Positions 1 to 45,148 of a stretch of 64,000 bases of DNA are shown here, one piece after another. Numbering within the stretch: position 1 is the first letter of the stretch; every line of letters begins with the position of its first letter. The position numbers and the translations under genes are program-made. Under the pieces are notes generated by a model that saw only the letters and a list, made by a program, of their open reading frames with translations, did no database searches and was not told where the DNA came from. The DNA is from Coffea arabica (lineage: Eukaryota > Streptophyta > Magnoliopsida > Gentianales > Rubiaceae), in contig NC_092317.1 in NCBI RefSeq assembly GCF_036785885.1, forward strand, positions 6,264,501-6,328,500, written 5' to 3'.

Positions 1-1103
1 TTTTTGGTTATCTAAATCACCTCAGTTGGGCCAGACCCCTTATGAACCACTCAAATCAAAGCTTGTTTTCTTTGATTTCTTTTCTTTTACGTTACTTGGA
101 TATTTAAGTTGCATCCCTTTCTGAGGGATTTTATTTGAATATAGTATTTATTAGCATAATTAAGAAAATCTCTAAAAATATCCTGCAGAATGCATGGCCG
201 ATGCTGGACCCTTTGGCTATTGCATTAATTGTTGCTAGTAAAAGATTTGATCCATTCGTCCACCACCAACAGTCCTGACTTGTAGATGTCATTTGTGTAC
301 ACACCAAATTTAAGGGTTTTTTTATTTTTTATTTTTTTTTTATTTCGGAGTGTAGATCATCTATACACACCATATATATAAAGCGAGAGAAGGGTGGTTG
401 GGTGTAAACATTTTGTTGTGTACTTTCATATTTACCCTTGCAAAAAATTATACTTATTAACTACCCAAACACACGTTGTCAGCATAACTACCTATTAGCA
501 TTTTTTAATTTACTATTTAAACATATTTTTCAGTATAGCTACTCTTAAGCAGTAAATGCCAACATAACAATCATTCCATCAAACAAATTTAAAAGATTAA
601 AATTTGCATTAATAATGAAAATTTTATACAAAATTCATTCACTATAAATATTAGACATTCCTTTCTTGCACACACATCGAGTGTGCATTTGTTATTAGTA
701 TTATTTACTAGTGGTGATTATGGGACTCATACAAAAGAGTTTACAAGTCTTGTTCTTTGGGCTGTACGAATTTTATTTTACTTTATTTTTGACATTACAT
801 GGCAACTATGGGAGAAGAGAAATAAGTCCAAATGGAGAAATAAGGTTCGTAACTCTACGACGGTCATTTAAACAATTCATCAATCTTTTCCAATTATTTT
901 GGTTAAATACGGATGATGGGTTTTATCATTGTACGATAACAAAAGTGCAGCTAAGGTTTAGTTTATGTTGAGGAGATTTTCTTTTTTCTTATTTTTTTTG
1001 TTTTGTTTTGGTTATATGTTGAGAAGATGAGCTCGAAATTCATTAGACATAGCATGATATTCACTACGATGTTTGATATCAAAGTATCAGTTTGCAAAAG
1101 CAA
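1..1103. repeat. gene-free AT-rich DNA with a MITE-like repeat copy
   Basis: No gene is supported here. Roughly 290-700 looks like one copy of a dispersed repeat. Read on the minus strand from about 690 it contains a GCACACtc-gaTGTGTGTGC palindrome followed by an AT-rich stretch ending in TATAAAATTTTCAT. The same order of motifs recurs on the plus strand at 2545-2630. The two copies are therefore in opposite orientation. I could not define its ends or a target duplication, so the family is unassigned. Confidence 0.4.
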
Positions 1104-1306
1104 TTTTTTTTTTTTTTTATAATCCGAAACATGCCCTGATCCGAACCCTTTGGATCCGAGCCGGCACACCAAATTCGGAGGGAAGCCGACAGCCCCATAC
1201 AGCTTTCCCGGACGAGTCAGGCAGGATATGCGATACAGCGGGCATGAATCGAACTCTGATCAGTAGAAAAACCAGCAACACCCCTCAACCGCTGCGCCAT
1301 ATGAGG
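1104..1306 (-). mobile_element. tRNA-derived SINE
   Basis: Read on the minus strand, the element starts near 1304 with a pol III A-box-like TGGCGCAGCGGT. A B-box-like AGTTCGATTC follows near 1250-1259. It runs through a GC-richer body and ends in a 15-base A tail, seen as T at 1104-1118. This order is the standard layout of a tRNA-derived plant SINE. I could not see a clear target-site duplication. Its GC content stands out from the AT-rich surroundings. Confidence 0.7.
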
Positions 1307-1310
1307 AATC

Positions 1311-2990
1311 AATACTACCAAGGAATCGTCCTGTAATAACAAGTCTTGTTAAGAATTCTCCATCCATACAATAAAATTCTTTTGGGATTATCTGCAATTT
1401 TTGACTCTCTTGTCCTATGATATGCATCCATGTCGCCATTAACTTTATCTTGGTCCTGTTGTAGATTCAAAATGTGATGTAGTTGACGAATCAAATCACG
1501 AACTCCTATAATATTATCCAATTTGCAAATAAGGACAAAATGCAATAGAAACTTTGTCGTACCTATTCAAATTCTCCATCATACCCATCTTCAATGTGTA
1601 AATACACATATTAACTCAATTATAAATCTCCCAAGAGTTTTACAACAGCACATAAGGAAGAAAAAAAAAGTAAAAATTACATACCTATAGCACAGTTTAA
1701 CTCATGAAAATAGCAAATAACTGGTTGGTGTACTTTTGTTGCATAATAGCACCAAAGAAAAATATACTAAATTTTACCAAGAAAACACAATTTGGTATAA
1801 GTTTTGATGTGCACTAATCCAGTAAAAAAATAGTGCATTATATATTGTAAGTCTTACACCAACTAAAGAATATTACTAGAATGATACCAACCAAAGAGAA
1901 TAATGTGACTGTAATAATAGGGGTTTTGTGTAAGAGAATATCCTGCACCATGACACTAAGAGTCATTTGGAAATTATATATAAAAATTGTATAGTGCAAA
2001 TAAAAATTGTACACGTATTAATGTTTTGTCTTTATAGTATTAATGAATCTTGAATTAATTAAACTGTATGGTGCAAATATGCTTTGTTGTAAAATTCTGG
2101 TGCATCTTGCTAGTGTATCTAATGCCTAATCTACTGACAAAGATAAAAAAAATTATTTAAATTTAAGATTCTAATCAGAAAACACAGGAATCCATTAGTT
2201 AATAATCATGTATCCAATGCAGTTAAAGTCAGAGGTCTTAGGTTAAGGTTGGGTTTCTAAGATTAGAGGTTTTGGGTTAAATTCTCTATTTCTTCTATTC
2301 GCTTCTTAAATCACGCCCCTCTCTTACTTTAAAATTTTATTTAATTAAAAAAAACTTGTGATGATCTTGGAGATCACCGAATGCCAAGTCCATTACATTA
2401 TATACTATTAGGTATGGATGAATGACAACTAACTTAAATTTAGATTTGGATACAAATTTTGCATATTATGTATATCATGCATCTTACCATAATGATGTAC
2501 ATGCTACCATTATGTACAAAATTTACTCATTCGTTATTGGTACTGGTGATAGGGCACACCCTATGTGTGTGCCATTTAGGAACAATCACTTTTATATGGA
2601 AGAATTTAATATAAAATTTTCATAAACAAAAAAAAAATCTTTGATCTTTTTAAAGTTTTTTTAATAGAATTTTAATAAACTTAATGGTTACCGTATTTGT
2701 GAGTGGTTATGGGTGAAAATTAGTTACGGTTATGATAATATAGGCAACATGTAATGAGATGATAAAGCCATAATTTCGTGATTGTGAGGGTAAAGTTGAA
2801 AATTCAAAAAGTGACAAAAAATTTTGCATTGAATTCAATGCTCCCTACATACATAGTATAAACTAGTAAGTGAGGTACACACTCTTTTTGCATATTTTAG
2901 AAAAAGGGAAATAATAAAAATATATAGAATAAAAAATTAGTTTAGGAGATTTTTGGAAGGTGATGCAATGCTCATAAGTAAATTAGTTAA
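1311..2990. repeat. AT-rich intergenic DNA with a second MITE-like copy
   Basis: No gene is supported. Positions 2545-2880 carry a GGCACACcctaTGTGTGTGCC palindrome and downstream sequence that match, in opposite orientation, the repeat near 290-700. The remainder is low-complexity AT-rich sequence. I see no splice-compatible coding segments. Confidence 0.4.
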
Positions 2991-3545
2991 TCACTTCATC
3001 AAGAGTGTAGTGATAGTTATGTAGTGGTAGTTGCATAGGAGTGAAAGGTTTTTCAAATAAGATGTGGATAGATAATAATAAATATTGAAAGAGTAACTTT
3101 GGAAGGGTAAATATCAACACTTTTTGTTTACATCAAATCTTTGCTCACGTTGTTTTTAATAATCTCACACTTTATGTGTAGATTGTAGATTGCAGTGTTA
3201 GTTACGTAGGGGTGAGATATTTTTCAAATAAGATGTGGATAGATAATGATAAATACATAAGAGTGAGAGGTTTTTCAAATAAGATGTGGATAGATAATAA
3301 TAAACATTGAAAGAGTAATTTTGGAAGGGTAAATATCAACACTTTTTGCTACATCAAATCTCTACTCACTTTTTTTTTTTTTTGAAATAATCTCACACTT
3401 TATGTGTAGATTGTAGTGTTAGTTACGTAGAGGTGAGATGTTTTTCTGATAAGATGTAAATAAATAATGGTAAATATTGAAAGAATACTTTAAAAAAATA
3501 AATATTAACACTTTTTATTAACACCAAATCCTTATTCATATATAT
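2990..3545 (+). repeat. three degenerate copies of a ~170-200 bp repeat
   Basis: Three consecutive diverged copies can be read. Each contains gtgagagg/atgtttttc, AAATAAGATGTGGATAGATAAT, a tattgaaagag segment, GGAAGGGTAAATATCAACAC and ctttttgtttacatcaaat. The copies start near 3000, 3190 and 3410. The middle copy also has a partial internal repeat of the gatgtggatagataat segment near 3230 and 3285. Copies differ by many substitutions, so the duplication is not recent. No coding potential is seen. Confidence 0.6.
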
Positions 3546-3550
3546 ATATA

Positions 3551-3582
3551 CTAGGGAAGGACAGCCCGCGCGACCCGCGGGG
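3551..3582 (-). mobile_element. Helitron-like 3' terminus
   Basis: On the minus strand a GC-rich hairpin (CCCGCG, five-base loop, CGCGGG; plus-strand 3565-3581) is followed after 10 bases by CTAG (3551-3554), and the next base is T. A hairpin about 10 bases before a terminal CTRR, inserted between A and T, is the usual 3' end of plant Helitrons. The body would extend rightwards. A possible but unproven 5' end (TC next to A on the minus strand) lies near 5761. No Rep/helicase coding sequence is visible, so it would be non-autonomous. Confidence 0.55.
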
Positions 3583-6120
3583 ATTTGGTGCTTGTGATTC
3601 AAGATAATTAATAATTATTGTTTAATATTTTGTAGTATAGGAACTGAAGTATGATGATTTTATCATGTGATTTTAATAGAAAAATCATAAGTTACATAGT
3701 GAGTCAATAAAAATAATATGCAATGAGACATCCTTATCGTTATACTATATAAGAATCCATTGTGATCAAAGGTTATGTTTGAATTTCAACTGCAAAGATA
3801 ATGGTAGTTTAAAAATGTAAGAATGTTTGAAATGTAATTTAAAAGTATCCAAAGGTCTCTTCTAAAACTTATCCAAGATGATAAAACATTTTAAAGTATC
3901 AATTGGACCCTTCATCTCTCGAATCTATATATGTTCGTGAAAGATCCCTCAAGCAATGCTTCTGATTTCTCCCTCGACTTAAGCTCAACCTGAATTATCA
4001 AGTCAAGTTTATACATCAATCACTTTGGACCCGGTCTAATCTAAAATAATTTTATTTTTGACTAATTATTTATATAATTTGATGGGTATAATACGACTTA
4101 ATCACATGTTTCTTATAGAGACAATAATGCCCAAAAATGATAGATAGATAAGAAACTTAAGTGGTCTTTTTCAAAGTTTTGTAGAAACTATTCAGATTTG
4201 GTGTTTTTTGCTAGGGGCATTTTTTTATAATCTCATAAATAAGTTCAAATCTGCATAATTGTTAAAAATCTAAATTGAAACTATCTTGATTATAAAAAAT
4301 TGGTGCAAATAATATTTTCTAAATTTGAAATTGTAGAAAATGGTAACTAAAATAAGAAGAAATTCCTCATATGAATTCGAATTGCAAACTATAGGTAGAA
4401 ACTGCTTAATGATATATTCCAATGTGTACTTGTATAAGTATTCAATATAACATCTCTACTGAATTGACTCGTTTGAACTATGAATAATAGTTGCTTCAAT
4501 CAAATCAAGCAACATTATTTATCATTGTACAACATACAATTATGAGTAAATGAATTAATACAATGCAAGCAAAATGGTGCTGTAGCTAAAGCATTTAAAC
4601 TCATCAAGTTCCACTACAAATTCTTTTAGATAGCATAAAAAGGCAAATTTTTTGTATTTGAAACTATATAAACAGTATAATACAAGAACGGGATCATAAC
4701 ATGGAAAGCAAATAGAGTGCAAATGACATCTTAGTACTATGTAGCATGATTAATTTTCTTTTTTAGTTTCAATGAAGTACAAAATTCTAAGTTAATAAAT
4801 TTTACAATAATAAAATTCCCAATTAAAATAAACACAAGCTAAATTTCAAATCATATTACATGAAAAAATAACTACTTGAACCATAACTGCAAGAATGCAG
4901 TCAACAGATCACTGGAATCAAGAATAATAGGAGAAAGTTCATGAGAAATAAGGTTATTTGACTTAAATAAAGAGATAATACCTTGGTTGAGGAGGAGAAG
5001 ATGATAAAATTGCTTTTATGATTATTTTAGAAAGTGACAACATTATCTCAAATTGTACTTTGACCAGAGACAGAATCTCTGGGATCTACTAAGAAAAACA
5101 ATACAATTAGTCAGTTTTTGGAATTAGAAGTATCAAAAAGCAAACTATATGGAGTTCTTGAATAAACCAATCATTAGAAAAAAAAACTATAATCGAAGAA
5201 GACAAACCCAAAGAACTCACCTCAATTTAAAGGAAAAGTTATGCATTCCACCAAATATTTAATAGCCATAATAAAATCAAAGAGGTGAAACCGAAAAAGA
5301 AGAAAGGGTATCGGCTAAACATGGGGACATAAATATGATAATGATTGTTCAGATAATAATTACGTTAATTAATTGTAATTAAAATCCAATTATGTAAACA
5401 TCCAATTAATTCCTTAACAGATGAGAAAGGTTTAAGGAAATTGGAAGGCTTGGATGTTAGTATAATAAATGATTAAAAGGACTTTTATGTAATTCTATCA
5501 AAATACAAGCTTTATTCAGTTGTACTTGATACTCAACTTGGCATCAAACATTGTAACATACCAAACCTGCCCATAACCTTAAATGTCTGAAAGGCTATAT
5601 AAGTAATTATAGTGAAATTAAAGCTATAATAACTTGTACTCAGTGTTCCAAGTACTCTTCAAACACTCTCACATTCCCAAAATAGCCTCACCCCTGCGGT
5701 TGAAATCTAGTCCTAAACTCGTTCTTATATAATATATATAATATATAATATATATAAGGATATATTATAATCCCACGCTTTATTATACAGTAAGACGTAT
5801 TTTTTGGGAACGGAAGGTTCGATCAATTAGGCAGGACTTAGGAGGCTTAAGTTAATGTGATTGGTGATTATATGGTCACATGGGCCGTCGCTCTGGCCCC
5901 CGAGACAGAGGATTCCTTAAACAGTATCCGAACACGTGTATTTTTCTGCCTAACTCTCCAGCATGGACCCCGTCCCCCCATACTCCAATTTCACCCCGAC
6001 ACTTCAGCTTCTCCATGCGCTATTTGACCAAACTAACCTCCCATAATTCCACCTAACCGCATTCTCCAAATGAATACACATGGTTAAACTAGTAAATCCA
6101 CATCAAACTCCAGGCCACGC
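3583..6120. other. gene-free AT-rich DNA, possible Helitron body
   Basis: No open reading frame of note and no family similarity seen. Up to about 5760 it may be the body of the Helitron-like element that ends at 3551. From 5790 base composition becomes more balanced. It includes an ACACGTGT G-box core at 5934-5941, which may belong to the promoter of the MIR162 locus that follows. Confidence 0.35.
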
Positions 6121-6130
6121 CTTATAATAT
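6121..6130 (+). promoter_or_regulatory. TATA-like box of the MIR162 locus
   Basis: CTTATAATAT lies about 430 bp upstream of the miR162 foldback, in a stretch rich in CACACA and CCC motifs typical of plant leaders. Transcription would then start near 6150. This is inferred from position and motif only. Confidence 0.35.
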
Positions 6131-6223
6131 GACAGCTCACCCACAGACCCAAATCACGCACAAAACACACACAGAGTATCTGTCACTGCAATTACATAAA
6201 CGATTGAGAGCACTGAGCAGCGG

Positions 6224-6301
6224 ATGCAGCAGCTATGGATTATGGGTATACTTTTATCCCATGCCCCCTTTGCCCCCTGTTCTCTATCCCTGATTTGTTA
6301 G
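6224..6301 (+). CDS. short leader ORF in pri-miR162 (25 codons)
   Basis: This is the first ATG in the presumed MIR162 leader. It encodes a 25-residue peptide beginning MQQLWIMGILLSHAPF and ends at a TAG. Short ORFs in primary miRNA transcripts have been proposed to encode regulatory peptides, but nothing in this sequence shows translation. It could equally be chance, or be cut by a splice site near 6245. Confidence 0.2.
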   Translation: MQQLWIMGILLSHAPFAPCSLSLIC

Positions 6302-6552
6302 ATTTTTTGCGGGTTCGCTTATTTTGTTGTGTAAAGTGGGCTGGGAAGAAGACTTTTCTTTTTGGTTGATGAGTACGAGTTTTTCTCCCTGTTTGTAGCC
6401 ATGTATGAATCTCTAATTCTTGAATATCTCAGATCTGTGCTGAAAACCCATTGAAAAGATCTGTGGGAATGCTGATTTTTCGTCGGTTTATGTGATTATT
6501 TCAGTTTCTTTTTTTTGTGTCATGAGTTGGCTCTTGTGGATAGTGGAAGGCT

Positions 6553-6680
6553 TGAGGACACTGGAGGCAGCGGTTCATCGATCTGTTCCCTGAAATCCAA
6601 GCATGAGAAAAAGAGAAAAAAAAAAGAGTATTGGAACAGGAATCGGTCGATAAACCTCTGCATCCAGCGCTTAACCCTTT
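6553..6680 (+). ncRNA. MIR162: miR162 precursor hairpin
   Basis: The mature miR162 sequence is at 6647-6667 (21 nt, starting TCGATAAACC and ending CATCCAG). It agrees with the miR162 sequence I know from Arabidopsis. The passenger strand is at 6562-6583, starting TGGAGGCAGC. The two arms pair over about 22 positions with scattered mismatches and G:U pairs, separated by a loop of about 63 nt. Mature miRNA on the 3' arm and star on the 5' arm matches known MIR162 genes. The arms continue pairing a little beyond the duplex (GTTCCC/GGAAC on the loop side). Known target in plants is DCL1. Both miRNA and star are conserved, so the locus should be functional. Confidence 0.95.
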
Positions 6681-6960
6681 CTCCATTTGCATTCTCTTAT
6701 TATTCTTTCTTTCTTTTACTACCATCATGTTCTTGAACGATCTTTTTCCGTTCATCTTTTTTTTTTTTTTGGTATTTTCTTTGCTGTTTTGTTCTCTTTA
6801 ATTCTTTGGTAAAACGTTTTATGATATTTTTCTTCTTGTGTATTGTGTTTTTTTGTCTTTCACGTTGGATAAAATGGCCTTGTGGAGGAGCGTTGGATCT
6901 CAAAAGTCCAAGTCAAACTCCCGAATAGACATATGGGGAACTGGGAAATAACTCTTTATG

Positions 6961-9130
6961 TATTTTCATTGGTGCATTTTTTTAATTATATATTTGTTTG
7001 TTTCAGTAATCAAAGAGGCCACCACTGAATAATGGTAGACTTTCCCCTACCCAATAATTTACATGCATGCACGGTTGTATTTTTGGGTCGTCCATGATTA
7101 GCTCCCATTAATTACTACTACTACTAGTATTTATTATTTATACTTAGCTTTTGTTGCAAACACCTTATCCTTCCTTGTATATGTATGTACATATTTCTTG
7201 GAGGGTATCATGTGTGTTCTCTAACCTTAATCTGATAAAAGTAACCTATACATGCCATGTAAGTGCAATTAGTTAGTATGTCTATTATTATCTATATATT
7301 AACTACTACTATAATCTAATTATGAAGACAGGAAACTAAACTTTGTGCTGTAGATGATTTGTCACTCTTTTAATTATGTGGGCTCTTTGTTTGGCGGTAC
7401 TTGAGAAGCCTAGCCATTTGGTTGCTTTTTCTATGAAAGGTTGATTTCAGATTAGCTGTAAATCTTGTCAACTGGCAAACCTTTTTCTACATAATTTGCT
7501 AATTTCTATCTAGTTTTGTCACCTTGAAACAGCTTGTTGCCTTGCTAATTGTCCTTGGGAGTTTGTACTGGTATTTGTTTGTATTTCATTAGAGGTAAAA
7601 AGGGTTGCCTCGGGGTTCATTTCACTCTTTCCTATCCTTCTTTTTATCCTACCATGCCCGATTCTTGTCCTTGATAGTTTACTGTAGAAAAAAGAATCAT
7701 GAGATGTTTGAATCGGAATAAGTATGGAATGACATGAATGAAAGGGCTTGTAATTTTGTTTAATGTGCATGGCTTTTGGCTTCTTTCTTGAAATAAAATA
7801 TCCCATAAAATAAAATATTGTAGCTTTTACTAATATTATTGTTGTCTCGTGGGAAAAATTAGCTGAATTGGGGAAATGGAATGAAAATTGAACTCTAGTA
7901 GTAAGGTTTGCCATTACTAGTTCAACACTATCCAAAAGTCAATTAAAATTTTTCAGATTTACAGCAATTTTTTAAGTACTAAATGGAGTTTTACGTTGAG
8001 ATTTTTAACTTACAAAAAAAGATCAAAGTGGTGGTCCAATAGAACCATGACTTCTCTGAACAACCTAAAAAAATCATGCCATTCAATACCCTATAGAGTT
8101 TGGAGGACAAAAAGAGAACCAAATTCTTTTACCAATTGATTGTCATTGTCAAAGGGTGTGCGGTCAAAAGTATATTACTTTGGCGTTGTTCGTTTTGCTT
8201 AAAAGGGAAGCTTAGGTGATGGGGAACACAAATGCCTTGCGTCATTATATTGTGTTCCCATGGAAGTGAGCTACTACAATGGATTATGGATGGGGTGTAC
8301 CAAATTGCCAGAGAATCTATGAAGCTTGAATTCAACCCTTATGGGATCTGGCATCAAATTCGCAATGCCAAAACCTGAAAATTCCAGTCAAGCATTTATT
8401 GGGTCTATCAACCAAATCCAATCCTGTATGGGACTTCATTTGCTTCAAGGAAGATCCTCCTACGCTTGCGTCTTCATCATTCTGATCCATCTAGGGAAAT
8501 GGAATGCTGATGCCCATGATTTGAGGACCATTCAATTTGTGGATAACAAATTCCCACCATCGATATTTCCTTTTCTCTTAGCCCTTTTGCTTCTTCAAAG
8601 TTCTTTTCCTTGACAAAAAGCAACCATCTTTTGAAAGGCAGATGAGGAATTGGTGAAAAAGATTAGGCTGTTACATTACTACAGCAGATTTGTGCTTTTC
8701 TACTTTATATTGGTGCATCCCAAATGAATGATGTGTCGTTGGTGAAATGAGGGTGATAAGAAGTATGAAATGATGCTAGGCATTGACATTAATTTAAGGA
8801 GCCTTGTAGTGGATGGAGCAACGTGACAAAAAGTAAGCCATCTTAATGATGATGGCTACGCTGATGAGATAATTTTAAATATCTATGCGGTTGTGACAAG
8901 TAAAGATAGCAATGGCGTGCTAATAATCGTCACTATTACAATTATTCAGTTCTATATGATGCATTACAAAGTAAGATGGATAGCGATCGCAAATGCATCT
9001 CAAGTGTCAGCTATACAGTAATACTGACTGCATGTTTAATCTGTCATTAGAGAGCAGTGATGTAGATTAAATTGTGCTGGACGATTTTTAATAATTTGTT
9101 AATGAAATTTGATTATCTATAAAAAAAAAA
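6961..9130. other. gene-free intergenic DNA
   Basis: I see no supported gene. Two moderately long frames exist (138 codons at 7519-7935 minus, 95 codons at 8326-8613 plus). Neither has domain-like composition, splice context or similarity I recognise. A short perfect inverted repeat, GGGAACACAA ... TTGTGTTCCC, lies at about 8221-8258 with an 18-base loop; it is too small to call a miRNA precursor. Confidence 0.5.
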
Positions 9131-9282
9131 GTAAATCTTAAAGACGGTGTATACGCTATCACAATTGGATATACGACACATATGCAAATTTTGAGTTTCA
9201 CATTCAAATTCGAATTATGTGTCGTACATCTAATGATGAAAATACATGCACTGTCAGTATATAGAAAATTAATCTTAAAAAA
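9131..9282. mobile_element. short foldback MITE
   Basis: An inverted repeat of GGATATACGACACA and TGTGTCGTACATC arms (about 9165-9230) is embedded between ends reading AAATCTTAAAGACGGTGTATAC and CACTGTCAGTATAT...AATTAATCTT. A related shorter fragment (gtgtatatacatagtcagtatatataagattta) occurs at 46528-46562. No transposase is encoded. Superfamily and exact ends are not resolved. Confidence 0.45.
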
Positions 9283-10821
9283 AATACAGTAATACAGTAA
9301 GAAAGTTTACAAAACATCTCAAGGTACACAGTGAAGAGTATTTGATTTTTTTTTTTTTGGGTTTAAAGAAGATTTCAAGTCTTGTCACAGGAATAGGGAA
9401 AAGAGAAAATTTTGTAAAAAATTCAGAAGGGCTGATATCTGATGTCCCCAAAAACCCATCACCGGATACTAGGCCTGATTTGTTTGTTTTGCCTCAGTTG
9501 GAGTCTTATCCGTTCACACTACTCGCAAAAGGATAAGTTTTTTATTGTTGTTGGACCAGCGGTCCTTTTTGCGGTTAGAAAGTATGAATGTAGATGATGA
9601 CGAAAGTGGGCTGGAGATAACTCCAGTGAATCTCATATATATTAATGAATTCATTTACAAGTGTCAGAAAATCACGTCATTCATGAGTGATGAGTGATAG
9701 ATACTCATATGAAAATATTAAAATCAAGAAGGCGATTATAATTTAGGATGCGTTCCATAAAACTGAAATCTCAAAACTAAAGTTTGAAATCTGAAAATCA
9801 AAGTTTGAATTTATTAAATTATTAAATTATTAAGTATTAAATCTAATACATTTGAATGTATATTACATTTAGTAATAAGTGAATAACTTATCACTTAATT
9901 TTGGGAGTAAGTTTTGTCTAGAATATTTAGTGCCGTTTAATTAATTCAGATGTTCAATTTTTATTATCAAACGGCTTGAATATATAAAGATCTGAATCCA
10001 TTAAGTTTTATGTGTTGAACTGGATTATCAAATAGAGCCTTAGTTTGTGTTATCATGTGCTTGTGACTTTCAATTTTTACCTTTTTTTTATTTTGTGGAA
10101 GACAATTTATTGGGTGATGTAAAATCACCATAGTTTCACGTCATCTAATGGATAAGTTCCAATAATTAGACAAACTCAAAAAAAAAAAAAAAAAAAAAAA
10201 AAGGGATCACCATATTCTCAGATGACGCCATGAAAATGTAACTGATTACCATTTTGGGTAGCAGTTAATTTAGTTTGAATAGGATTTTAGAAACCTCTTA
10301 ATGAAATTGAACTCTAGAAGTAAACTAAACATGAGTTAATTCGAAAATAGTGAAACATAAAGTCATAATTTGAGGGTCAACTGATGGATTAGTGCTTATA
10401 AGTAGCCAAATACTTTGGATTACTTTCATCACATAGTTTGACTTTTCAGGTTAAATCCATTTATAATTTTACATTACCACCGACACTAGAGGAAAAATAT
10501 TCTGCAGCAAATAAATTAAGAAATTAAAGTGATGTTATCTTACTTGAAGAAGAACTAACATAAATCTTATTGGACTTTTAACAGGAAATGGTAAAAAAAA
10601 GGGTGAACTAAAATGCAAACTGGAGGATAAAGCAACCAAGGAAGAAATCTAAAATGGCTCGAAATTGAAATGGATGCTAAACTAGCTGAGGAACATGGAA
10701 AGAAATGCACTGCCAAGAAAAGCACACCTCAAATTCCTATAGTTTCTGCCTTGAACTGGAAGAAAACATGTTTAACTTTCAGGTGAAAGAAGCCTGATTT
10801 AGATTATTAACAAACAGTAGG
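9283..10821. other. gene-free intergenic DNA with poly(A) tract
   Basis: Low-complexity AT-rich sequence. It includes a long A run at about 10175-10202 that could be a retroposon tail, although no SINE body is recognisable beside it. The 10560-10821 part is probably the 3' untranslated region and flank of the downstream minus-strand AP2/ERF gene. Confidence 0.4.
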
Positions 10822-11601
10822 TTATACTAGTTTGTGGTGGGACATTACATTTGTCTGATAAAACAGTGAATTAAACAGAGTCCCCTGAGAATTGTTCTCT
10901 GGTTCTTCTCTTCCTTGACTTAAAGAAGCGCTGAAAGAAGGAGCCACAATAACAGAAGAATACACCTTTGAGCTGCCAAGTGAGATCCCGCGGAGCTCAC
11001 GTTTTTCTTGAGACTGATCATGATCTTCATTTCCAATTATATTATCTTCAACTGTTGTTACAACATGATCAACAGGGCTGCTTTCTCCTTCAACGACACT
11101 CTGATCAGTAAAATTCCGCGTAGATTTTGAAGAATCGAGAGCTGAGGATTTCGCCAGGTTCTTCGTGATGGCATGTTTAAGAAGCTGATAAAGCCTTGGA
11201 TCCTTTCCCAGCAAACTAAGATTTTCTTCGCGAGTATCCATGGTTCCATTGTATGTAAAGTTTGTCTTAGCATTTCTTCCCCTTAGAAGTCTAGATGCAT
11301 TGTCATAAGCCAAGGCTGCTTCTTCAGCTCTGTCAAAAGTCCCCAGCCACAGCCTCAGCTTCTGAGATGAATCCTTGATTTCAGCTACCCATCTTCCCGA
11401 AGGCCTTTGTCTAACTCCTAAAAATCTTCTTCTTCCATGGATGGTAATATTTTCTCGTCTTGGACTTTCCATGTCTACTTGCACTTCAATACTTTCAGGA
11501 GGGGTTGCTGTTGCCATCATAGGCAGCAAGGGTAGACTTGTAAATGGATCTTGGGACTGAGATTGTACTTTTGAGCTTTGAGCGTCCATGCTACCATCCA
11601 T
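10822..11601 (-). CDS. AP2/ERF-domain transcription factor (RAP2.11/ERN-like)
   Basis: A 259-residue protein with one AP2/ERF DNA-binding domain at about residues 59-116 ([18 protein letters not shown] ... [18 protein letters not shown] ... GRNAKTNF). A single AP2 domain, without a second AP2 or a B3 domain, makes it an ERF-family nuclear regulator. The [16 protein letters not shown] form resembles the RAP2.11/ERN branch, an assignment from memory of the family. The N terminus is Ser/Gln-rich and the C-terminal half is acidic and low-complexity, typical of activation regions. I see no EAR repression motif. The start at 11601 is the first clear ATG in the main exon. An upstream 12-nt exon (ATG at 11728, donor after 11717, acceptor before 11622) would add [11 protein letters not shown] in frame, so the true start is open. 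Confidence 0.9.
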
Positions 11602-11729
11602 GGAGATGGGCTTGAGGATTTGCTGCGTATATAAATGGGAATAAACCTATATCAAGTATTAAACAACATTTATATGACAATAATAGGAGATTTAAATAAT
11701 GACACCCTTGGCTTACCTGGTTGATCATA

Positions 11730-14020: not shown

Positions 14021-15265
14021 TCACCTCCGGTACTGATACCTTTTGAAGTTGAAGTACAAACGTAGGACTCCTTGTCCAAAAGTGCACTTGAACCCCTTCT
14101 TATGGGAATAATCCCTTTGTTTGTTAACTACCCGAAATGCTATGTCTTCATAAGGTGGCCCTGAAGGGAACCTGATGATGCAGGTCTCTAAACTGTTGCC
14201 ATCCTTCTCGATGGCATAAGTCGGAGCTTTCTCTTTATCAGCAAGATCTGGATAGAAAATGTTGAATTTGTACCCTTGTACAATTTTTGGCTGTGGGCTA
14301 TCATGGTCATAGTGGTTGCGTTTGTATTTATTCCACTCATACCCCGTATGAACACGATTAAAATACTGGGGCTTTCTTGGACTGTACTTGGCACGCCACC
14401 AGTAGACCTGTGAATCAAGATTAATTTCATGTTTCCAGCCAAAAATTGCATCACCTTCTTCCATGGCTCCCATTGCTTTCTTCTCAAAGTTATCATCAGG
14501 AGCAGGGGCCCAGCCCCCAATTCTTGGCGATGCTTTTCTGGATTCTCTTCACGCCTTGTACATTGTGGCAAGAGAACTTGAACATCTTTCCCGTCATGAC
14601 AGACTGGGTCCTCCTCTATTGTCAGGCTTTGGACTGAAGTCTATCTCACAGTCTCCGAATTCTATTGGTTTCTCAAGGTGCTGGAGGTGTCTGCTAAGTA
14701 CTTCGGCGTGGATTTCCTCAAGACAAGCCTTACCCTTGAAGATATCAATGCGCCTAAGAAGAACTTCCCAAAATTCGACCACCTTAGCTGTACCAGACTG
14801 CATCTGCGCCTCAACCTGAGACCTTAGAGCTTCCAGTTCGCGATAAGATTTCCCCTGCAGAAGTCTCTGCACATATGATTCGATACTTCAATGCATTCCT
14901 TGCTCTTTGGCAAGCAGTTCAGGAGGAAGTTGCTCTCCACGCACAATGGCTCGATCAGATGAGTCCCTTTTTCTAGCTTCAGATAGTTCCCAATCACAAA
15001 CCACGAGCAGTGGCTGCCAATACTGCATGTGTCTTGGCGTTGCCTTGTCCAAGTCGAGATGCATCTTTATGTCCTCATAAAGGCCTTCCAATTCATGTAC
15101 AGTTAAACCCTTGAAAACCATGTCTGGTTCGTCTATTTCTACATCCAAATCATCTGAACGATAGAGATGCTTAGTAAGTAAATCGATTGGTATACCCGTC
15201 CCTCGCGTAGCCGTTTCCCGGAACCAACCTTGATTTGATCAAGGAGAAACTCTTCTTGCGTCTTA
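14021..15265 (-). pseudogene. CACTIN pseudogene, probably processed
   Basis: Minus-strand reading gives the middle and C-terminal parts of CACTIN, a conserved splicing-associated protein. Segments are EEFLLDQIKVGSGKRLREGR, then VFKGLTVHELEGLYEDIKMHLDLD, KSYRELEALRSQVEAQMQSGTAKVVEFWEVLLRRI, and the C-terminal domain (MGAMEEGD ... QVYWWRAKYSPRKPQYFNRVHTGYEWNKYKR ... FNFKRYQYRR). The frame has one stop directly after EQGMH, another after GGPSLS, and frame changes near 15190 and 14570. No intron-like gaps separate the segments and the N-terminal third is missing, as expected of a 5'-truncated retrocopy. I saw no clear poly(A) tail or flanking duplication, so retrotransposition is inferred. A functional parent should exist elsewhere in the genome. 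Confidence 0.88.
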
Positions 15266-18545: not shown

Positions 18546-19337
18546 TGGAGAGAGTAGAAGGGGTAAACTGGCCATCCAGAAACATTTGAAAATTCTGCAA
18601 AGGTGGTTGTAGCTTGTGAGTAGTTTGAGTCTGCAACAAGCAAGTAAAACTTTTCAATATTTGTAAGGTATGAGTCGCCATTGTCTAAACTCTAAACAAA
18701 TAAATAATCTATATATGGTTTACTGAACTTTATACCTAGCAAAATTGACTACGACAAACTCATCTTATTAAGCACGTAAAGGTTCTTCCATTTTTCTAGT
18801 CAAATATGGCCGCCATTTGTTTCTTGTCAAATTGACCATGAGATTAAAAAAAAAACAATAATTCTATCCTGTTTTACTAAAGGATCTTTTTTATTTTTTT
18901 ATACACGATAGATTTTATACTATAACTATTCCTTGTTTACTAGGGGAGGAGGGAGAACCTAAACAAATCAAGAAGAAACCGATGAATCATCACCGATCCA
19001 AACGGGTGTCTATGCACATGCTGGCAAAATATTTCCAAGAAAGACTGAATATTAGAATGTAAGTAAAAAAATTGTGATCCCTGATCTACACTCAAATAGA
19101 GATTTAAAATTACCTTGGTACGCAACTATTCCAAAAGTAGTAAATTATTTACTAAAGGATCTCAACAATGTCAAAACATCATTGGACTAGCACTCTAGTC
19201 AAAATTCGTTACGGAGTTGACTTAACCTGATCTTTTTTGAACTGTCAATTACACCTCAACCACTAACTTTTCAGAACAGTCTGAAAACACTTTTCTTTCA
19301 GGCCTGAAAATCCCTGAAACTAAGTAAAACAACATAC
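18546..19337. other. intergenic DNA with a SINE fragment; upstream flank of the NLR gene
   Basis: Positions about 18890-19010 match the 3' part of the SINE at 17718-17976 (GGGAGAACCTaAACAaaTC after a T-rich tail), truncated and diverged. The rest, up to the ATG at 19338, should hold the promoter of the resistance gene. I see no TATA box that I would defend. Confidence 0.4.
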
Positions 19338-22061
19338 ATGGCTGAACAAGTAGTTATTTTACTATTGGACAAGATTGCTGACTATCTGATTGAGGGAGCT
19401 GCAGGTTTATGGCCAAAGGACTTGAAGCTACGTGATCAGATTGAATGGGTCGAAGGGGAGCTGAGGCGAATGCAGTGCTTCATCAAGGACGTAGATTCAA
19501 GACAAGATGCTGATGAAAGAGTCAAAAATTGGGTTGCAGACTTAAGGGAGGTTGCATATGATACAGATGATATTCTTGACTCTTTTGTTTACAGTCTGGT
19601 ACAAGGACAGCAGAGGGGAGTTCTTGTTACATTTCTCAAGAGGTACTTCCTCTCCTTTAATGAGTTGATCTTATGTCGTAAGTTGAATGATCAGATAAAA
19701 CGAATCAGGATTAGACTCCAAGAGATTAGTGACAGAAAATCCACATACGGAATTGGAAATATAGGAATAGGGACAGAAGGGGCTGGTTTTGCAGCTAGCA
19801 GACTGCAAGAGAGGAGAAGATCATCTGTTCATGTTTGCGAGGATATTGTTGGTCTGGTTGAAGATGTAAAAATAATTGAATCACAGTTGATTCATGGAGA
19901 ATCAAGGCGTTGTGTTGTCTCAGTTGTCGGCATGGCAGGTATAGGCAAGACCACTCTTGCCAAGAGAGTTTACCTTAAATCTGATCTTAAGGAGCATGTT
20001 GATTGCTGTGCTTTTGTTTATGTCTCTCAAAATTTTAGAGCAAGAGAGATATTACAAGAACTGGGGAAAAAATTGATGGGAAATGTAGGAGGAGATTTTG
20101 GAAGAGCAAGCAATGAAGAATTGCGGGAGATAATCTCAAGTTTTTTGGAGAGTAAAAGGTATCTTATAGTTTTGGATGATTTGTGGAATTTTGCAGATTG
20201 GGATGATCTCAAAGCAGCCTTTCCTGAGGAGAAAAATGGGAGTAGAATTCTGCTTACTACCCGTTTTAAAGATGTTGCTCTCTATGCTGACTCGAAAAGT
20301 ACCCCACATGAACTCTGCCTAATGAATGACGAGGATTGTTGGAAATTGTTCTCCAAGATGGTGCAATTAGACCGGGAATCCTCTGCAAGTTTGCCACCAT
20401 GGGCTGAAGAATTAGGTAAGCAGATGCTGAGGAGATGTGGGGGATTACCACTTGCTATTGTGGTGCTAGGTGGCCTGCTGTCAAGAAAAGATGCAACCTT
20501 TAACGAGTGGCAAAAGGTGTTTCAGAGTATGCATTGGCAGTTGAGGCAAGAACCAATGCAATATGGAGATGTGTTGGCCCTGAGTTATATGGACTTGCCA
20601 CACTACTTGAAATCATGTTTCTTATACTTTGGTCTCTTCCCTGAGGATTTTGAAATTTCTGCAAGGAGATTGATGCTGCTGTGGGTTGCAGAGGGATTTG
20701 TGCTGCCAAGAGGTCAACAACCCCTTGAAGATGTAGCAGAAGATTACTTGGAAGAGCTTATTGGAAGAAACATGGTTCAAGTGGCTAAAAGGAAGTCCAA
20801 TGGAAGGATTAAAGCATGCCGAATCCATGACCTTCTCAGAGACCTTTCAATCTCAATAGCCAAGGAGGAACACTTCCTTGATTTCATCCATGGAGATGTC
20901 AATGCTGATTCTGTTACAACAAGATGTCGCAGACTTGGCATTCATTCTGGAGAAATCTCCATTACAGAGAACACTCCAAAAGTTCGTTCATTGTTGTGCT
21001 TTGATTCGGTTGAATCGAATTTCAAACCAAGGAAGGTTAAGCTCTTGCGCGTGCTTGACTTAGAAGGCGCTTACTTAACTCAGCTGGACTCTGAAATAGG
21101 AAATCTCATCCATTTGAGGTACCTGAGTTTAAGAGAAACTTGGTTAAAAAGATTTCCATCAACAATTGGCTACCTTGAGAAGTTGCAAACTTTGGACTTG
21201 AGGTCGACATTGATTAGTCCAATCCCCCTTGCAATTTGGAAGCTGCTGAACCTGCGGTTCTTGTACTTCAATGAACTGAAAGAAATGGTTGTGGATCCAC
21301 CAAAGGATGCAGCTCTAACTCATCTCCAAACTTTGCAAGGGTTATGCATTAGCCAAAAGAGTCGAATTGAGAATGGCTTGGACAAATTGACCAACATAAG
21401 AGAACTGGAATTGCATGGTGAGCTGTATGCACAAGAAGCTGCCTTGGAAAAGTGGATTCTCAACTCAAAGAACCTGGAATGTCTGAAGCTACATGCTAAT
21501 CCAGTTACAGCATTCGTGGTTGATGCTCACACTAAAATTCAGGACTTTGACAGAACCCGTCTTTCGATCCCCAAGTCAACGATGTTTGCAGATCATTTTT
21601 TTCTTTCTAAGCTGCATCTGGACGGATATATCAAGAAGCTCTATGATGTTGAACATTTTCCACCGAACCTTGAGGAGCTATCATTGAAAGACTCCTATTT
21701 GATGGAAGATCCCATGCCAAAGCTGGAGAAGCTGCAGAATCTTAGAGTCCTAAAATTGAAACAATGTGCGTACGTGGGGAAAGAATTAGTTTGCTCAAGT
21801 GGAGGGTTTCCTCAACTGCATTTGCTGAAACTTTCTTTCCTCACATTACAGACTTGGAGGATAGAGGAAGGATCATTGTGCAACCTTAAACAGTTGGAAA
21901 TTGTAGAATGCAAACAACTGAAGATTCTCCCGAGGGGATTGCATCCATTGACTAGTCTGAAGGATCTGAGATTAGGATATATGCCCCATGAATTCGCATT
22001 GAAGGCTCGAGATCGTGCAGGGGAGAACTGGTACAGAATTCATCGCGTGCCTCCATTATAA
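19338..22061 (+). CDS. CC-NB-LRR disease resistance protein (RPP13-like)
   Basis: A single-exon 907-residue intracellular immune receptor that looks complete. An Rx-type coiled-coil covers about residues 1-165, with an EDVID-like VAYDTDDILD at 73-82. The NB-ARC domain follows: P-loop GMAGIGKTT (198-206), kinase-2 YLIVLDDLW (275-283), RNBS-B GSRILLTTR (301-309), GLPL CGGLPLAIVVLGG (367-379) and RNBS-D CFLYFGLFPEDFEI (427-440). The MHD position reads IHD (496-498), a variant common in this subclass. Leucine-rich repeats fill about residue 540 to the end. No TIR or integrated decoy domain is present. The family detects pathogen effectors and triggers hypersensitive cell death; the effector is unknown. 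It stands alone, with no second NLR in the window. Confidence 0.96.
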   Translation: MAEQVVILLLDKIADYLIEGAAGLWPKDLKLRDQIEWVEGELRRMQCFIKDVDSRQDADERVKNWVADLREVAYDTDDILDSFVYSLVQGQQRGVLVTFLKRYFLSFNELILCRKLNDQIKRIRIRLQEISDRKSTYGIGNIGIGTEGAGFAASRLQERRRSSVHVCEDIVGLVEDVKIIESQLIHGESRRCVVSVVGMAGIGKTTLAKRVYLKSDLKEHVDCCAFVYVSQNFRAREILQELGKKLMGNVGGDFGRASNEELREIISSFLESKRYLIVLDDLWNFADWDDLKAAFPEEKNGSRILLTTRFKDVALYADSKSTPHELCLMNDEDCWKLFSKMVQLDRESSASLPPWAEELGKQMLRRCGGLPLAIVVLGGLLSRKDATFNEWQKVFQSMHWQLRQEPMQYGDVLALSYMDLPHYLKSCFLYFGLFPEDFEISARRLMLLWVAEGFVLPRGQQPLEDVAEDYLEELIGRNMVQVAKRKSNGRIKACRIHDLLRDLSISIAKEEHFLDFIHGDVNADSVTTRCRRLGIHSGEISITENTPKVRSLLCFDSVESNFKPRKVKLLRVLDLEGAYLTQLDSEIGNLIHLRYLSLRETWLKRFPSTIGYLEKLQTLDLRSTLISPIPLAIWKLLNLRFLYFNELKEMVVDPPKDAALTHLQTLQGLCISQKSRIENGLDKLTNIRELELHGELYAQEAALEKWILNSKNLECLKLHANPVTAFVVDAHTKIQDFDRTRLSIPKSTMFADHFFLSKLHLDGYIKKLYDVEHFPPNLEELSLKDSYLMEDPMPKLEKLQNLRVLKLKQCAYVGKELVCSSGGFPQLHLLKLSFLTLQTWRIEEGSLCNLKQLEIVECKQLKILPRGLHPLTSLKDLRLGYMPHEFALKARDRAGENWYRIHRVPPL

Positions 22062-27608: not shown

Positions 27609-28310
27609 AATTAGATAGGGATAATTTCAGAAACCTCCCCTGAGGTTTCTGACACTTTCACTGACATCCCCTGAGGTTCTCAAAATTTCACTTACCTCCC
27701 TTGATAAAAAATTGGGCCCCTTTTCTGACGTCATCAGGGCCAAAATTACAGATATATCCCAAGTAGTTGGGGTTAATTACTACCGTTTATGTTTAAGTTA
27801 CATAATGAATTTTCTTATTCTTTACGTACCTATTCTTGTCATGCAAGATTACACGCCTGACTTCAAATTACGTACTTTGCAAGAAAATGTCTGTGGAGTC
27901 ATTTGTTACAAGACAAGAAGTTCAATCAAATAAGAACAATTTATGTACACAGGTGGGATTGGGAATTCAAGCTTGTCCTTTTTGGTATTTAGGATAATGT
28001 TTTTATATGAACTCAAGGAAGATGGATAGCCTATTTTGCAAGGTTATTAGGTAATTTACCTTTGTGGAATTCTTGATATCAAGCCATTTGATTGCTAATG
28101 TGGACAGGTGGCTTAAGCGCGTAATAAGTGCCATGGATTCGAAGTTCGGCTGAAATATCACATATCGAACGAAGTCTTTATTAGAAACCTAATTAGAAAC
28201 CTATTAGAGTTCAGTGAGCTCTCGTACTAAGCTCCACCGCCAACCCTCCATTTCGAAAAAAAAAGACAAAAGCAAAACAAAAGCAAACACACGAAGCGCA
28301 GAATAACGTT

Positions 28311-29028
28311 GAAACCCGCAAGCGGGATTATGTGTTTTTTCTATTTCAAGGTTAGCTCGCATGCGGGTTAATGTTATATTTGAGCGCGAGAAGAAAAAAT
28401 TGGTAATTAGGCTCTTTGGGCATTATAAGTAAATATTTAAATTAATGGCAGTTTTATTACACCAATATTATTGTATTATCATTATTATGATTATTGTATT
28501 ATTTCTTATGCAAATATAACATTTAATTATTTAAATTTGATTTTATTTTTACAATTTATAAAATTTTTATCACTTATATAATATTTTTAAAACCCTAATA
28601 CATCTAAATTTGATTTTATTTTTCAAATTTATAATATTTTTATTTAAAAAAAATGGGATACGGATAAGATATCCGGTTGGTTCGATTTGCATAGGTGCAT
28701 ATGAGAATATCCGAATACTCCTGAAACCCGCAAGCGGGATTCTGTGTTTTTTCTATTTCAAGGTTAGCTCGCATGCGGGTTAATGTTATATTTGAGCGCG
28801 AGAAGAAAAAATTGGTAATTAGGCTCTTTGGGCATTATAAGTAAATATTTAAATTAATGGCAGTTTTATTACACCAATATTATTGTATTATCATTAGTAT
28901 GATTATTGTATTATTTCTTATGCAAATATAACATTTAATTATCCAAGCAGTTTGATTTTATTTTTACAATTTATAAAATTTTTATCACTTATATAATATT
29001 TTTAAAACCCTAATACATCTAAATTTGA
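28311..29028 (+). repeat. pair of ~305-bp direct repeats inside the MULE-like element
   Basis: The segment starting GAAACCCGCAAGCGGGAT at 28311 and ending near 28613 recurs at 28723-29028. There are only a few differences, including a short substituted patch near 28940. The copies are separated by about 110 bp. They do not begin TG and end CA, and no coding or primer-binding site lies between them. I read this as an internal duplication and not as terminal repeats of a retroelement. Confidence 0.8.
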
Positions 29029-29290
29029 ATCTAATTTTCTACAAGTCATACTTATAAATGCGAAATCTAACAAAAAAGTTAAATACAATTTTTGCAGGTC
29101 AAATTTAACAAATGCGAGCTATTTGCAAAATTTTAAATATTTGCAACATTTTTTAAAACAAAAATTAGAAGCTTTCTGCAAATAATTCCCTACCTCTCAA
29201 AAAATACCAAAATAAAAAAGATAAGAGCTCGCATTTGCTTCCTAGAAATAATTCCCTAGCTCTTAAAAAAGGAAAAAAAAAAATTGAGAA

Positions 29291-29352
29291 GAGCTCGCAT
29301 TCGTGGAATGCGAGCTCAATAACCAGAGCTCGCATTCCACGAATGCGAGCTC
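29291..29352. repeat. nested perfect palindrome of GAGCTCGCATTC arms
   Basis: Positions 29291-29317 and 29326-29352 are exact reverse complements (27 bp, 8-base spacer). Each 27-mer is itself a hairpin (12-bp GAGCTCGCATTC stem, 3-base loop). A third foldback, GCTCGCATTTGTGAA/TTCACAAATGCGA, follows at about 29358-29387. The region could extrude a cruciform or give structured RNA. Confidence 0.9.
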
Positions 29353-30138
29353 TTGTAAGCTCGCATTTGTGAAATTCACAAATGCGAAGACCCCCCTGAC
29401 GGAAATTAAACCCAAAATCACCCCTTTTGTAGAATTTTTTTAAAATTCATCACAAAGTTGGAAATTTCTCAATAGAAATACAACTTGTCTGGATTCCTTT
29501 CACTCTCTGATATCATTACGGTTGCTTTGCGATTACAGCGGCAAAACCTGTTTTTAATGGAGAAAGATGTAGGTGAATTCCATGATTCTCCCCTATGGCT
29601 TGAAGAGGCCATGGTTGCAGCTAAAACTTTTTACTCAGAGCTCTAATTGTAGCACAGCAAATGCACTTGTTATCACTCCAAATTAGTAGCAAAGAATGTT
29701 AATAGCTTGAAACCTCAGAGGTAGTTAAGTTGCTTTGCTTTATATGCTATTGCTACTGAAACAGCAAACCTTCTGGCCGTTGCAATTTGCAGCTAGCCGT
29801 TGCAAAATCTGCCAAATAACTGTTGCATGGCACATCTGGTGCATGCAATTTTTTGTATTGCACTTACCCCCCCTCAACTTTACTAATTAGTCCAAATCAT
29901 TTATTCTTCTTTGAATCTTCTACTAATACAACTTCTGCAAAGGGTAGCTATGGAATAAAAATACCTTCTCACACATGAAAATAATATTTTAATCTGATTT
30001 GGACTGGATTGTTACCACAAAATCAAAAGCAAGGGAGGTAAGTGAAATTTTGAGAACCTCAGGGGATGTCAGTGAAAGTGTCAGAAACCTCAGGGGAGGT
30101 TTCTGAAATTATCCCAATTAGATATTCAATAGTTACTA

Positions 30139-31278
30139 GGGATAATTTCAGAAACCTCCCCTGAGGTTTCTGACAGTCTCACTCACCTCCCCTGAACTTT
30201 GCAAAATATCAGATACCTCCCTTGTCAGATTATTGGACCCTATTTGTGATATCATTGATGATGAATTGACAGATATACCCTCATAACTTATGATATATTT
30301 GAAGCTATTTTTGACAGAATTAGTTAAATGAGTAATAGAGATATAACTTTTGATATAACTTATGATATACCTTCTATTCCACTTTACACTTTTTATTTGT
30401 AGTACAATCACCAATGAAGAGTTTAGCACTAGTGTTTCCTTTCTCTAAAGTCATGTATTTCATTTTTTTTTTTTTGTAAGACAATTATCTAGTGTAACTC
30501 ATTACTTATATTTGGGTAAATTTGGTTTTCAAAAATTCAATGACGTAAATTGTATATTACATTATCTCATAAAGTGATGCGACACAATTTGGGTTATTGA
30601 ATTTTTTGAAAATCGGATCTACCTAAGTTCTAGTATTCAAACGAAGCTTGTTGAATAAATTCGACCAACTACAGTGTGAATTAATATTTTTTTTTTTAAA
30701 ATCTCAACTAAAGTATCTAGCACACAGAGAAAATTGCAAAAAAGAGTTATTAAACTATTGAGAATTTGGTTATTTGATCGTTACATTATTTATTTAACTG
30801 CAATTGCCATTCACTCAATTACCCAAATAGTGAAAATTTTTTTGTGACTTAACTAGTAAAAATTTATACTTTTAATCACTCAAATAATATTTTTTTATGA
30901 CTTAACTAATAAAAATTTATACTTTTAATCACTCAAATTATAAAACTATACATTTTTTTTATATCACCAGAAGTATGTTTCAATTAATTGAATGATCATA
31001 TTAGCTAAATAAATGTCTAATAGCTAAAACAAAAAAATATAAATAGCATTGTAACATTATTTGAAGAAACCATCTGCATTTGTCTCTATCTGGTTCAACT
31101 TATTACTTTTTTTTTTTTGCTTTTGCTTTAGCTCAAGTTGTGGATAAGCAAAAAGGGCATATGTGGAACACAAATATCATCTCACTCCTCAAAATATTTT
31201 TTTAATGCTCATTTTTCTGACATGGGCTGATCTTGTTACTCCAACTATAAGTTCAGGGGAGGTTTCTGAAATTATCCC
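30139..31278. mobile_element. second MULE-like element of the same family, 1.1 kb
   Basis: The left end GGGATAATTTCAGAAACCTC (30139) matches the left end of the neighbouring element at 27618. The right end is GGGGAGGTTTCTGAAATTATCCC (31278). Flanking 9-bp sequences tagttacta (30130-30138) and tcgttacta (31279-31287) agree at 8 of 9 bases. The left inverted repeat has diverged from the first element after about 40 bp and the interior is unrelated AT-rich DNA. No transposase is encoded. Imperfect duplications suggest it is older than its neighbour. Confidence 0.83.
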
Positions 31279-31287
31279 TCGTTACTA

Positions 31288-39954: not shown

Positions 39955-42441
39955 ATGGCGACAACTCTTCTCTCCTCTAACGCTACCGTTTCCACTCCTT
40001 TTCTCGGCCAGAAACTGTAAGCTTTCAACACTTATCAGCTCCTTTAGTTATTCACAGTATTCCCCAAAGGATTTTGAGGTTTATTTATCAAAAGTTTTAA
40101 TTTTTTGTCTTTTTTTTTTGTAATTTTAGTGCAACTCATAGAGTAAGAGTAAATTCGAAGAAGAGTTCGAGTTGGACGCTTCCGCCGAGATTGTTGAATT
40201 TTAGGAGCCCCAGGTGTGCAGTCGATGCACCATTTGGAGGTGACGTACTTATTATTACAGAAATTTTTTTTCTCCCTGTACTTATTAAATTTCTAGCTTA
40301 TTGATGGATATGGGCTGGCAAAGTTGTTGATTTTGACGAATTTCATTGGGAAAAAAAGGAAGCTTTTGGGCATTAAATTTATTGGAATTCTTCTTTGAGC
40401 AAATTTTTTTGAGCTGCGTTTATTTTGATTCTTACTTGGGAACGTGTAAGCGTAAATTTATGCTTAGCTAGGAAATGCTCATGATGCTATATTTTTTCCC
40501 GTTTTCTTCATTTTCTTTCTCAAGGTATTTGAGGTTGAGTTTCCAGTGGAGACTCTGCTTTTAAGTAGAACCACGATTTAAGTGTTGAACCCTTTTTAAT
40601 GGGTTCGGATTATTAAGGAGACTTTCTTGTATCTGCAGGTAATATTTCAAAATTTCCTAGGATTAATGTCTGGGACCCGTTCAAGCGATTAGGTATAGGT
40701 AGGAATGCTTCCGAGGAGGAAGTATGGAGTGCTCGCAACTTTTTGTTGAGTCAATATGCCGAACATGAGAGGAGTTTTGAGTCAATTGAAGCTGCTTTTG
40801 AGAGAATACTAATGGCTAGCTTTAGGAATAGGAAAAAGACTAAAATCAACTTGAAGAGCCAGCTAAAGAAGAAAGTGGAAGAATCTCCACCTTGGGTTAA
40901 GAACCTGCTTAATTATGTTGAACTTCCTCCTGGTGTGATTATTCTGAGAAGGTTGTTCCTGTTTGGATTCATGGCATGCTGGAGTGTGTTGAATTCTGCT
41001 GATGCTGGACCAGCCTTCCAGGTTTGTTGACTACATCCTGCATACTCTTTTCCAGGAAATTTAATTCTCTTATCCTTATTGGAGGCACCACAACTGTTGT
41101 ACTGTGTGACTTGGAAAATGTTGGTTAGCTAATATAAATGAGTGTGTAAAAGATGATTAGGGCAAAGTTTAAGTTAATTTTCTCTGACCACATAAGAGAA
41201 ATTCATCTCTTGGTTTCCATTGCCATATGTCTGAAAAGTTATGCAATCTGCATGTTATCCTTTGCTACTGATGTTACAGGTATGGCAACCTTAAAAACAT
41301 GAACCTTGATAAAAATGGGGTACAACACTAAGGTTTTTATAGTAACTCATTGACCATGAAACCTGTGGTTGGGATTGCTTAAAAGTAGCATGAACCTGGT
41401 AAAGTATATGAAGATCAATTATCATATGGGTTTTGTCCTTTTTTTTTTTTGTTTTGTTATTATAGCCATTATAGAAGGCAATGAACCCAAGGAACCGGAT
41501 AAAGACGAATTACCCATCTCAAAGAGCTCTTTCATCAGAGTTTTGGCTTCAGAATTAAGTAATAAAATGAAAGAAAAAGGGGTAAACTTGAATACAAAGG
41601 ATAATGTAGAATATTGAGAAAAAGTCTTCCGAGTATGGCTGGGTAGGTTTTTCTTTTCATTTTCAAAACATTTGATCTTTTCCAGGGGTTGAGGATGGGT
41701 CACGTGAAGCTTGAATCTGGGCACTTTCATGAAACTTTTGGGGTTGCACTGCTAGAACAGCACTAACTTTTCTTATTTGTCTAAATGGACAATGGTTATC
41801 CTTTATAATTGACGTCAAGTCGATGAAATCTTTCTGAATTTATTATTCGTTAGAGACAGAGAAATCTAAAAAGGAAGTAAACATATAAATCTGCTATGAA
41901 TTCATTTATTTTCTTACAAGAAGCGACAATTTGACTACTCTTCCTGTAGGAAATAACAAGTGGGCTTATTATCATGTTAAGATGAGACCATCATGATGTT
42001 TATTTTTGGGAATGAATATCACAAATCTTCTTGGTTAAAACTCTTTTGCCAGTAAAATTGAAGATTGAAGGTCTTTCTTATAGATATGATATATGTCTGG
42101 ACAAACAGGTTGCAATATCTTTGGCAGCATGCATATACTTCCTCAATGACAAGATGAAGAGCTTGTTTAGAGCTGGCATTACCGGGTGAGTTTGCGAGAG
42201 CCAGATAATTTCTATCGCATTGCAATACCCCTACAATATTAACTCCTTTTTATGCATTTGTTACTGAAAAGTTTCTTTTCCCCATTGCAGATTTTTGGCT
42301 CTTTTTGTTGGTTGGTTCTTGGGTTCACTATTGGCTCCCATGATTCCAACGGTTTTGGTACATCCAACTTGGACACTGGAACTCCTTACCTCACTCGTAG
42401 TGTATTTCTCCTTGTTTTTAGCTTGTACTTTCCTCAAGTAA
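39955..42441 (+). CDS. CPP1: chaperone-like protein of POR1 (CPP1), chloroplastic, five exons
   Basis: CPP1 is a plastid membrane protein with a J-like domain that stabilises protochlorophyllide oxidoreductase and supports chlorophyll synthesis. Exons: 39955-40016, 40130-40239, 40639-41021, 42109-42185, 42291-42441, giving 260 residues. The N terminus ([21 protein letters not shown]) is a typical transit peptide. The J-like region reads [39 protein letters not shown] linker [15 protein letters not shown] leads into hydrophobic spans ([74 protein letters not shown]). The protein ends in a lysine at 42438, as I recall for homologues. Phases close and the gene looks intact. Confidence 0.95.
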
Positions 42442-44672: not shown

Positions 44673-45148
44673 TTTTCTTTTTTGGAAAAATAAATATTAA
44701 GGTTTAGGGTGTTGGGGGATTAATGGTAAAAGGTTTAAACCTTAACGATCCTGTGCTGTAATAATGGTGTTTTTTTTCCCCTCTCCTTTTTTGTGATCAA
44801 GAACGAAGGAGAGATGATTCTGGAGGAAGCCTGGAAGAATTTTGGTGCAAAGGGTGGTAACCAGTTCGGATTTCAACAAGAAACGTAAATAAGGCGTTGG
44901 AGCGAACGGTTGATTTTTGGTTGCGTTAGCAAATTCGAACTGTACATTTGGCCTCCATGCTGCACAAATATTCTAAACTGCCATCAATCATGCTAGGACT
45001 CCAAGAGTTGTGCGTTGGGGGAGTGGGGTGGGCGTTTGAGAGTGTGGCCCACTTGTTTCCACGTCAGTTTACACGTGTCAAGCGGTGGAGTTGCCAAGTC
45101 AGCAAGTTCAAGGTTCCTATAATAATGAGTCAGAGTGCGCGAGTATAT
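44673..45148. other. promoter region of the minus-strand tetraspanin gene
   Basis: Non-coding. Apart from the ACGT-core elements at 45059-45079, nothing specific is seen. Frames here overlap each other on both strands and look like chance. Confidence 0.4.
45059..45079 (-). promoter_or_regulatory. ABRE/G-box pair upstream of the tetraspanin gene
   Basis: CCACGTCA (45059-45066) and ACACGTGTC (45071-45079) lie about 390-410 bp upstream of the tetraspanin ATG. Two ACGT-core elements 4 bp apart resemble an ABA-responsive coupling. This is motif evidence only. Confidence 0.4.

Follow-up and report, generated by a model that had tools for sequence, protein, structure and literature searches.

A MIR162 locus and its surroundings

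The stretch of DNA analysed here, the window, is 64 kb long (G000:C8:6264501-6328500) and belongs to a 1.198-Gb Coffea genome in 131 contigs. Its gene content is of the plant type, as judged from the frames that match Pfam and from the DCL1 genes found elsewhere in the genome. When the whole window was compared by cmscan with 4227 Rfam families at their gathering thresholds, a single match was obtained, to the MIR162_1 precursor (RF00742) at 6551-6677 on the forward strand. The match covers the full model (positions 1-112) and scores 95.5 bits (E 1.2e-19) against a gathering score of 75. The A-rich loop of the Coffea hairpin is longer than that of the Rfam consensus.

The earlier note had placed the locus in a region without coding genes, and this holds as far as the region was scanned: 11 of the 52 stop-to-stop frames of at least 50 aa in 1-10800 were compared with Pfam and none reached the cut-off, two matches falling short of it (E 0.0058 and 0.055). 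Of the coding frames recognised, the closest to the hairpin is an AP2-domain ORF at 10822-11646 on the reverse strand. Farther along, the Pfam scan identified exons matching the cactin C-terminus (14021-14548, reverse), CPP1-like (40617-41030, forward), tetraspanin (43938-44696, reverse) and enolase (49719-50033, forward). There is also an open frame of 917 aa at 19308-22061 (forward) with Rx_N, NB-ARC, winged-helix and LRR domains, an arrangement of the plant disease-resistance type.

Upstream of the hairpin, inspection by eye revealed a TATA-like motif at 6123-6130 (forward), a possible core promoter, which is unchanged in a second copy of the locus on contig C7 (see below). A splice-site scan, run without a control and suggestive at most, gave candidate donors at 6313 and 6403, upstream of the hairpin, and a candidate acceptor at 7006, downstream of it. 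Alternative splicing of pri-miR162 has been reported in grapevine and is cited for Arabidopsis as well in the grapevine study (PMC2831844). An ATG frame of 25 codons lies at 6224-6301 (forward), also upstream of the hairpin, and by eye C7 retains it with one amino-acid change. It is a possible candidate for a pri-miRNA-encoded peptide.

The foldback and its family

The segment 6540-6690 folds with a minimum free energy of -51.3 kcal/mol (ViennaRNA), the mean of shuffled sequences being -34.93 (z -3.94), and none of 200 shuffles folded as well. The stable foldback that the earlier note expected of this segment is thus predicted. The foldback, including its lower stem, extends over 6542-6687 (forward). 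The mature miR162-3p (21 nt, TCGATAAACCTCTGCATCCAG) occupies 6647-6667 and the star strand, miR162-5p (22 nt, TGGAGGCAGCGGTTCATCGATC), occupies 6562-6583, with the upper stem and A-rich terminal loop between them (6584-6646). The two strands can be read directly on opposite arms at the coordinates originally proposed, and their pairing within a single hairpin is predicted. We take the star to agree with the miR162 star of Arabidopsis.

Plant miRNA loci are recognised by a short foldback, of less than 300 nt, whose miRNA/star duplex contains few mismatches. The Coffea foldback is within this range: it measures 146 nt, and the predicted duplex has three mismatches, all single-base and symmetric (6566/6662, 6571/6657 and 6576/6652). 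Below the duplex, the predicted fold has a 4-by-2 internal loop (6557-6560 and 6668-6669), followed by the lower stem, which ends at 6542/6687. Two details of the initial description need adjustment. The hairpin is indeed present at 6553-6680, the span first given to the locus, but the predicted stem reaches further at both ends. Similarly, the letters and coordinates of the star are exact, but in the predicted fold 6562 pairs with 6666, so that the 22-nt star has an overhang of 1 nt at that end of the duplex and of 2 nt at the opposite end. Plant miRNA duplexes are expected to carry 2-nt 3' overhangs at both ends, and a star of 21 nt (6563-6583) would produce them.

Could the hairpin be an inverted repeat that arose by chance, or a miRNA-like structure from another family? 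We consider the probability of this negligible. The covariance match is family-specific, with an E value of 1.2e-19, and each arm, searched with up to two mismatches allowed, has two matches in the 1.198-Gb genome, one at the MIR162 locus of C8 and one at that of C7, and none as a reversed control. The covariance match and the arm searches refute this alternative, and no point in its favour was found. Taken together, the arms, the fold and the Rfam match far exceed chance expectation. The identification of the locus as MIR162, made originally from the letters alone, is borne out by the passing of the RF00742 gathering cut-off and by the presence of both arms and the foldback. The mature sequence printed for grapevine MIR162 is identical in letters to 6647-6667 (PMC2831844).

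The locus at 6542-6687 is, almost certainly, a canonical plant MIR162 gene, for which transcription, processing and target cleavage are inferred. It is an ordinary copy from a known family with a known mechanism, and its presence is of low surprise. The closest known systems are the RF00742 family, grapevine MIR162 (PMC2831844) and MIR162a of Arabidopsis (Hirsch et al. 2006, as cited in PMC2831844).

A second copy and an upstream insertion

A search of the genome with RF00742, with scores computed for 47 of 117976 first-look candidates, returned four matches. Two are above the cut-off, namely the window locus and C7:6390335-6390468 (94.7 bits), and the other two are reverse-strand echoes of the same loci, below the cut-off. 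A 701-base probe finds the C7 copy with 94% identity across query positions 1-671. In 80 kb of C7, compared with the window for matches above 400 bits, all 22 matches listed are collinear, with identities of 86.9-98.6%. A stretch of about 3.7 kb (27618-31280) is missing from C7, the second such stretch, and the matches that flank it abut there (6413612 to 6413620).

The arms are the same in the two copies: the mature 21-mer is exact at both of its genomic occurrences, the star is likewise identical, and the counts of substitutions are 0/23 for the star arm and 0/21 for the mature strand. The hairpin with its base (6541-6690) has 2/150, both in the loop (2/63 over 6584-6646, with one gap run). 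The counts are 13/404 upstream, 9/389 in the leader, 10/261 in the 3' proximal and 27/511 in the 3' distal segment. The identity of the arms fits constraint, to judge from these sequences, and 44 bases are too few to prove it alone. Other paired stretches of C7 and C8 range from about 97.5% to 100% identical (100% over 3228 bases in L010/L011). Because of this range, C7 and C8 may be the haplotypes of a phased diploid, a better fit than fixed subgenomes.

The collinear region of C7 lacks an AT-rich, high-copy element of 2.2 kb that lies at 3551-5760 in the window. From its end it is about 0.36 kb downstream to the TATA-like motif and about 0.8 kb to the hairpin. The inner part (3600-5690) has at least 38 further copies with at least 97% query coverage and 92-96% identity among the 48 matches listed, a lower bound, 40 of 846 candidates having been scored. 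All six aligned copies share a left end of CTAG next to a GC-rich palindrome, and five of the six share the right end, AAGGA followed by T. Helitrons are recognised by a TC start, a hairpin and CTAG at the end, and insertion between A and T. Read on the minus strand, the element starts with TC, ends with a hairpin and CTAG, and is flanked by A and T; from these termini it looks like a Helitron in that orientation.

The proximity of this element, found only on C8, raises the question of whether the C8 gene is silent or decayed, its hairpin intact yet untranscribed and the miRNA supplied by C7. Because both arms are identical, small-RNA reads from the mature strand would not discriminate between the two copies, and to that extent they would be compatible with a silent C8 gene. 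Nevertheless, we regard silence as highly unlikely. The hairpin and arms are unchanged relative to C7 apart from the two loop substitutions, and C8 retains the 790 bp that separate the hairpin from the element, TATA-like motif included. It is also conceivable that the Helitron-like insertion makes expression of the C8 and C7 copies differ, which would lead to an inherited difference in DCL1 feedback. We think this quite unlikely too.

The DCL1 site and probable feedback

A genome search with a DCL1 fragment led to exons of DCL1 on C11 and C12. One exon ends in GAGCTGGATGCAGAG and is separated by a 71-nt GT..AG intron from the next, which begins with GTGTTATCGATG. The putative junction was placed from the GT..AG ends and the reading frame. 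The joined exons stay in frame (NELDAEVLSMSMDL), and their product of 84 aa matches PDB 7eld (Endoribonuclease Dicer homolog 1, Arabidopsis DCL1; E 4.8e-36). Splicing in silico creates the site CTGGATGCAGAGGTGTTATCGA, in which all 21 miRNA bases are paired and one target base, a G, is bulged. The bulged base in the Arabidopsis site is an A. Pairing of the spliced site with miR162 is predicted at -33.7 kcal/mol, compared to -37.5 for a perfect complement. The split-site pattern occurs twice in the genome, both times in DCL1, and its control gave none. The complementary site that was to be sought in DCL1 of this species is therefore present in both copies once the intron is removed, which supports the miR162-DCL1 reading of the earlier note.

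Since the intron splits the site, a search of genomic DNA for a contiguous one misses the real target, a practical trap for surveys of this kind. Such a search of the whole genome with up to two mismatches gave four matches, none complete (control, none): three have C for G inside an otherwise invariant core, and the fourth is mismatched elsewhere. The left half, as it stands in unspliced RNA, retains a predicted pairing energy of -28.7 kcal/mol, and energy alone therefore cannot show that cutting is confined to spliced RNA.

In Arabidopsis, the miR162 site of DCL1 is formed by the splicing of exon 12 to exon 13 (PMC4429486), and the Coffea site is likewise interrupted by an intron, at the peptide LDAEVLS. 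The same paper describes Salvia miltiorrhiza as having lost the site, whereas Coffea DCL1 retains it.

These elements can be assembled into a scheme. A primary transcript, presumably made by Pol II, would fold into the hairpin, from which DCL1 would excise the 6562-6583/6647-6667 duplex. The 3p strand would then load into AGO1 and guide the cutting of spliced DCL1 mRNA at its site. Such cutting would exert negative feedback on the very enzyme that makes miRNAs. The earlier note had the gene setting the level of the miRNA machinery; by homology, it is better described as probably contributing to feedback control of DCL1. With a miR162 gene and its DCL1 partner site now located in one genome, it is reasonable to assume that the known loop operates here as well.

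The two DCL1 copies (C11:49105179, forward, and C12:32085267, reverse) are oppositely oriented, and their positions on the two chromosomes do not correspond. A genome search with PF03368 (Dicer_dimer) gave seven matches, none at the C11 and C12 DCL1 loci; these matches show that another DCL locus keeps its orientation between C11 and C12. Because the DCL1 copies are opposed while that locus is not, the arrangement suggests that the paired chromosomes differ by a large inversion. One of the seven, L009 (G000:C12:6471659-6471874), has an internal TGA and is without a C11 partner among them; it is perhaps a broken or an intron-interrupted DCL copy.
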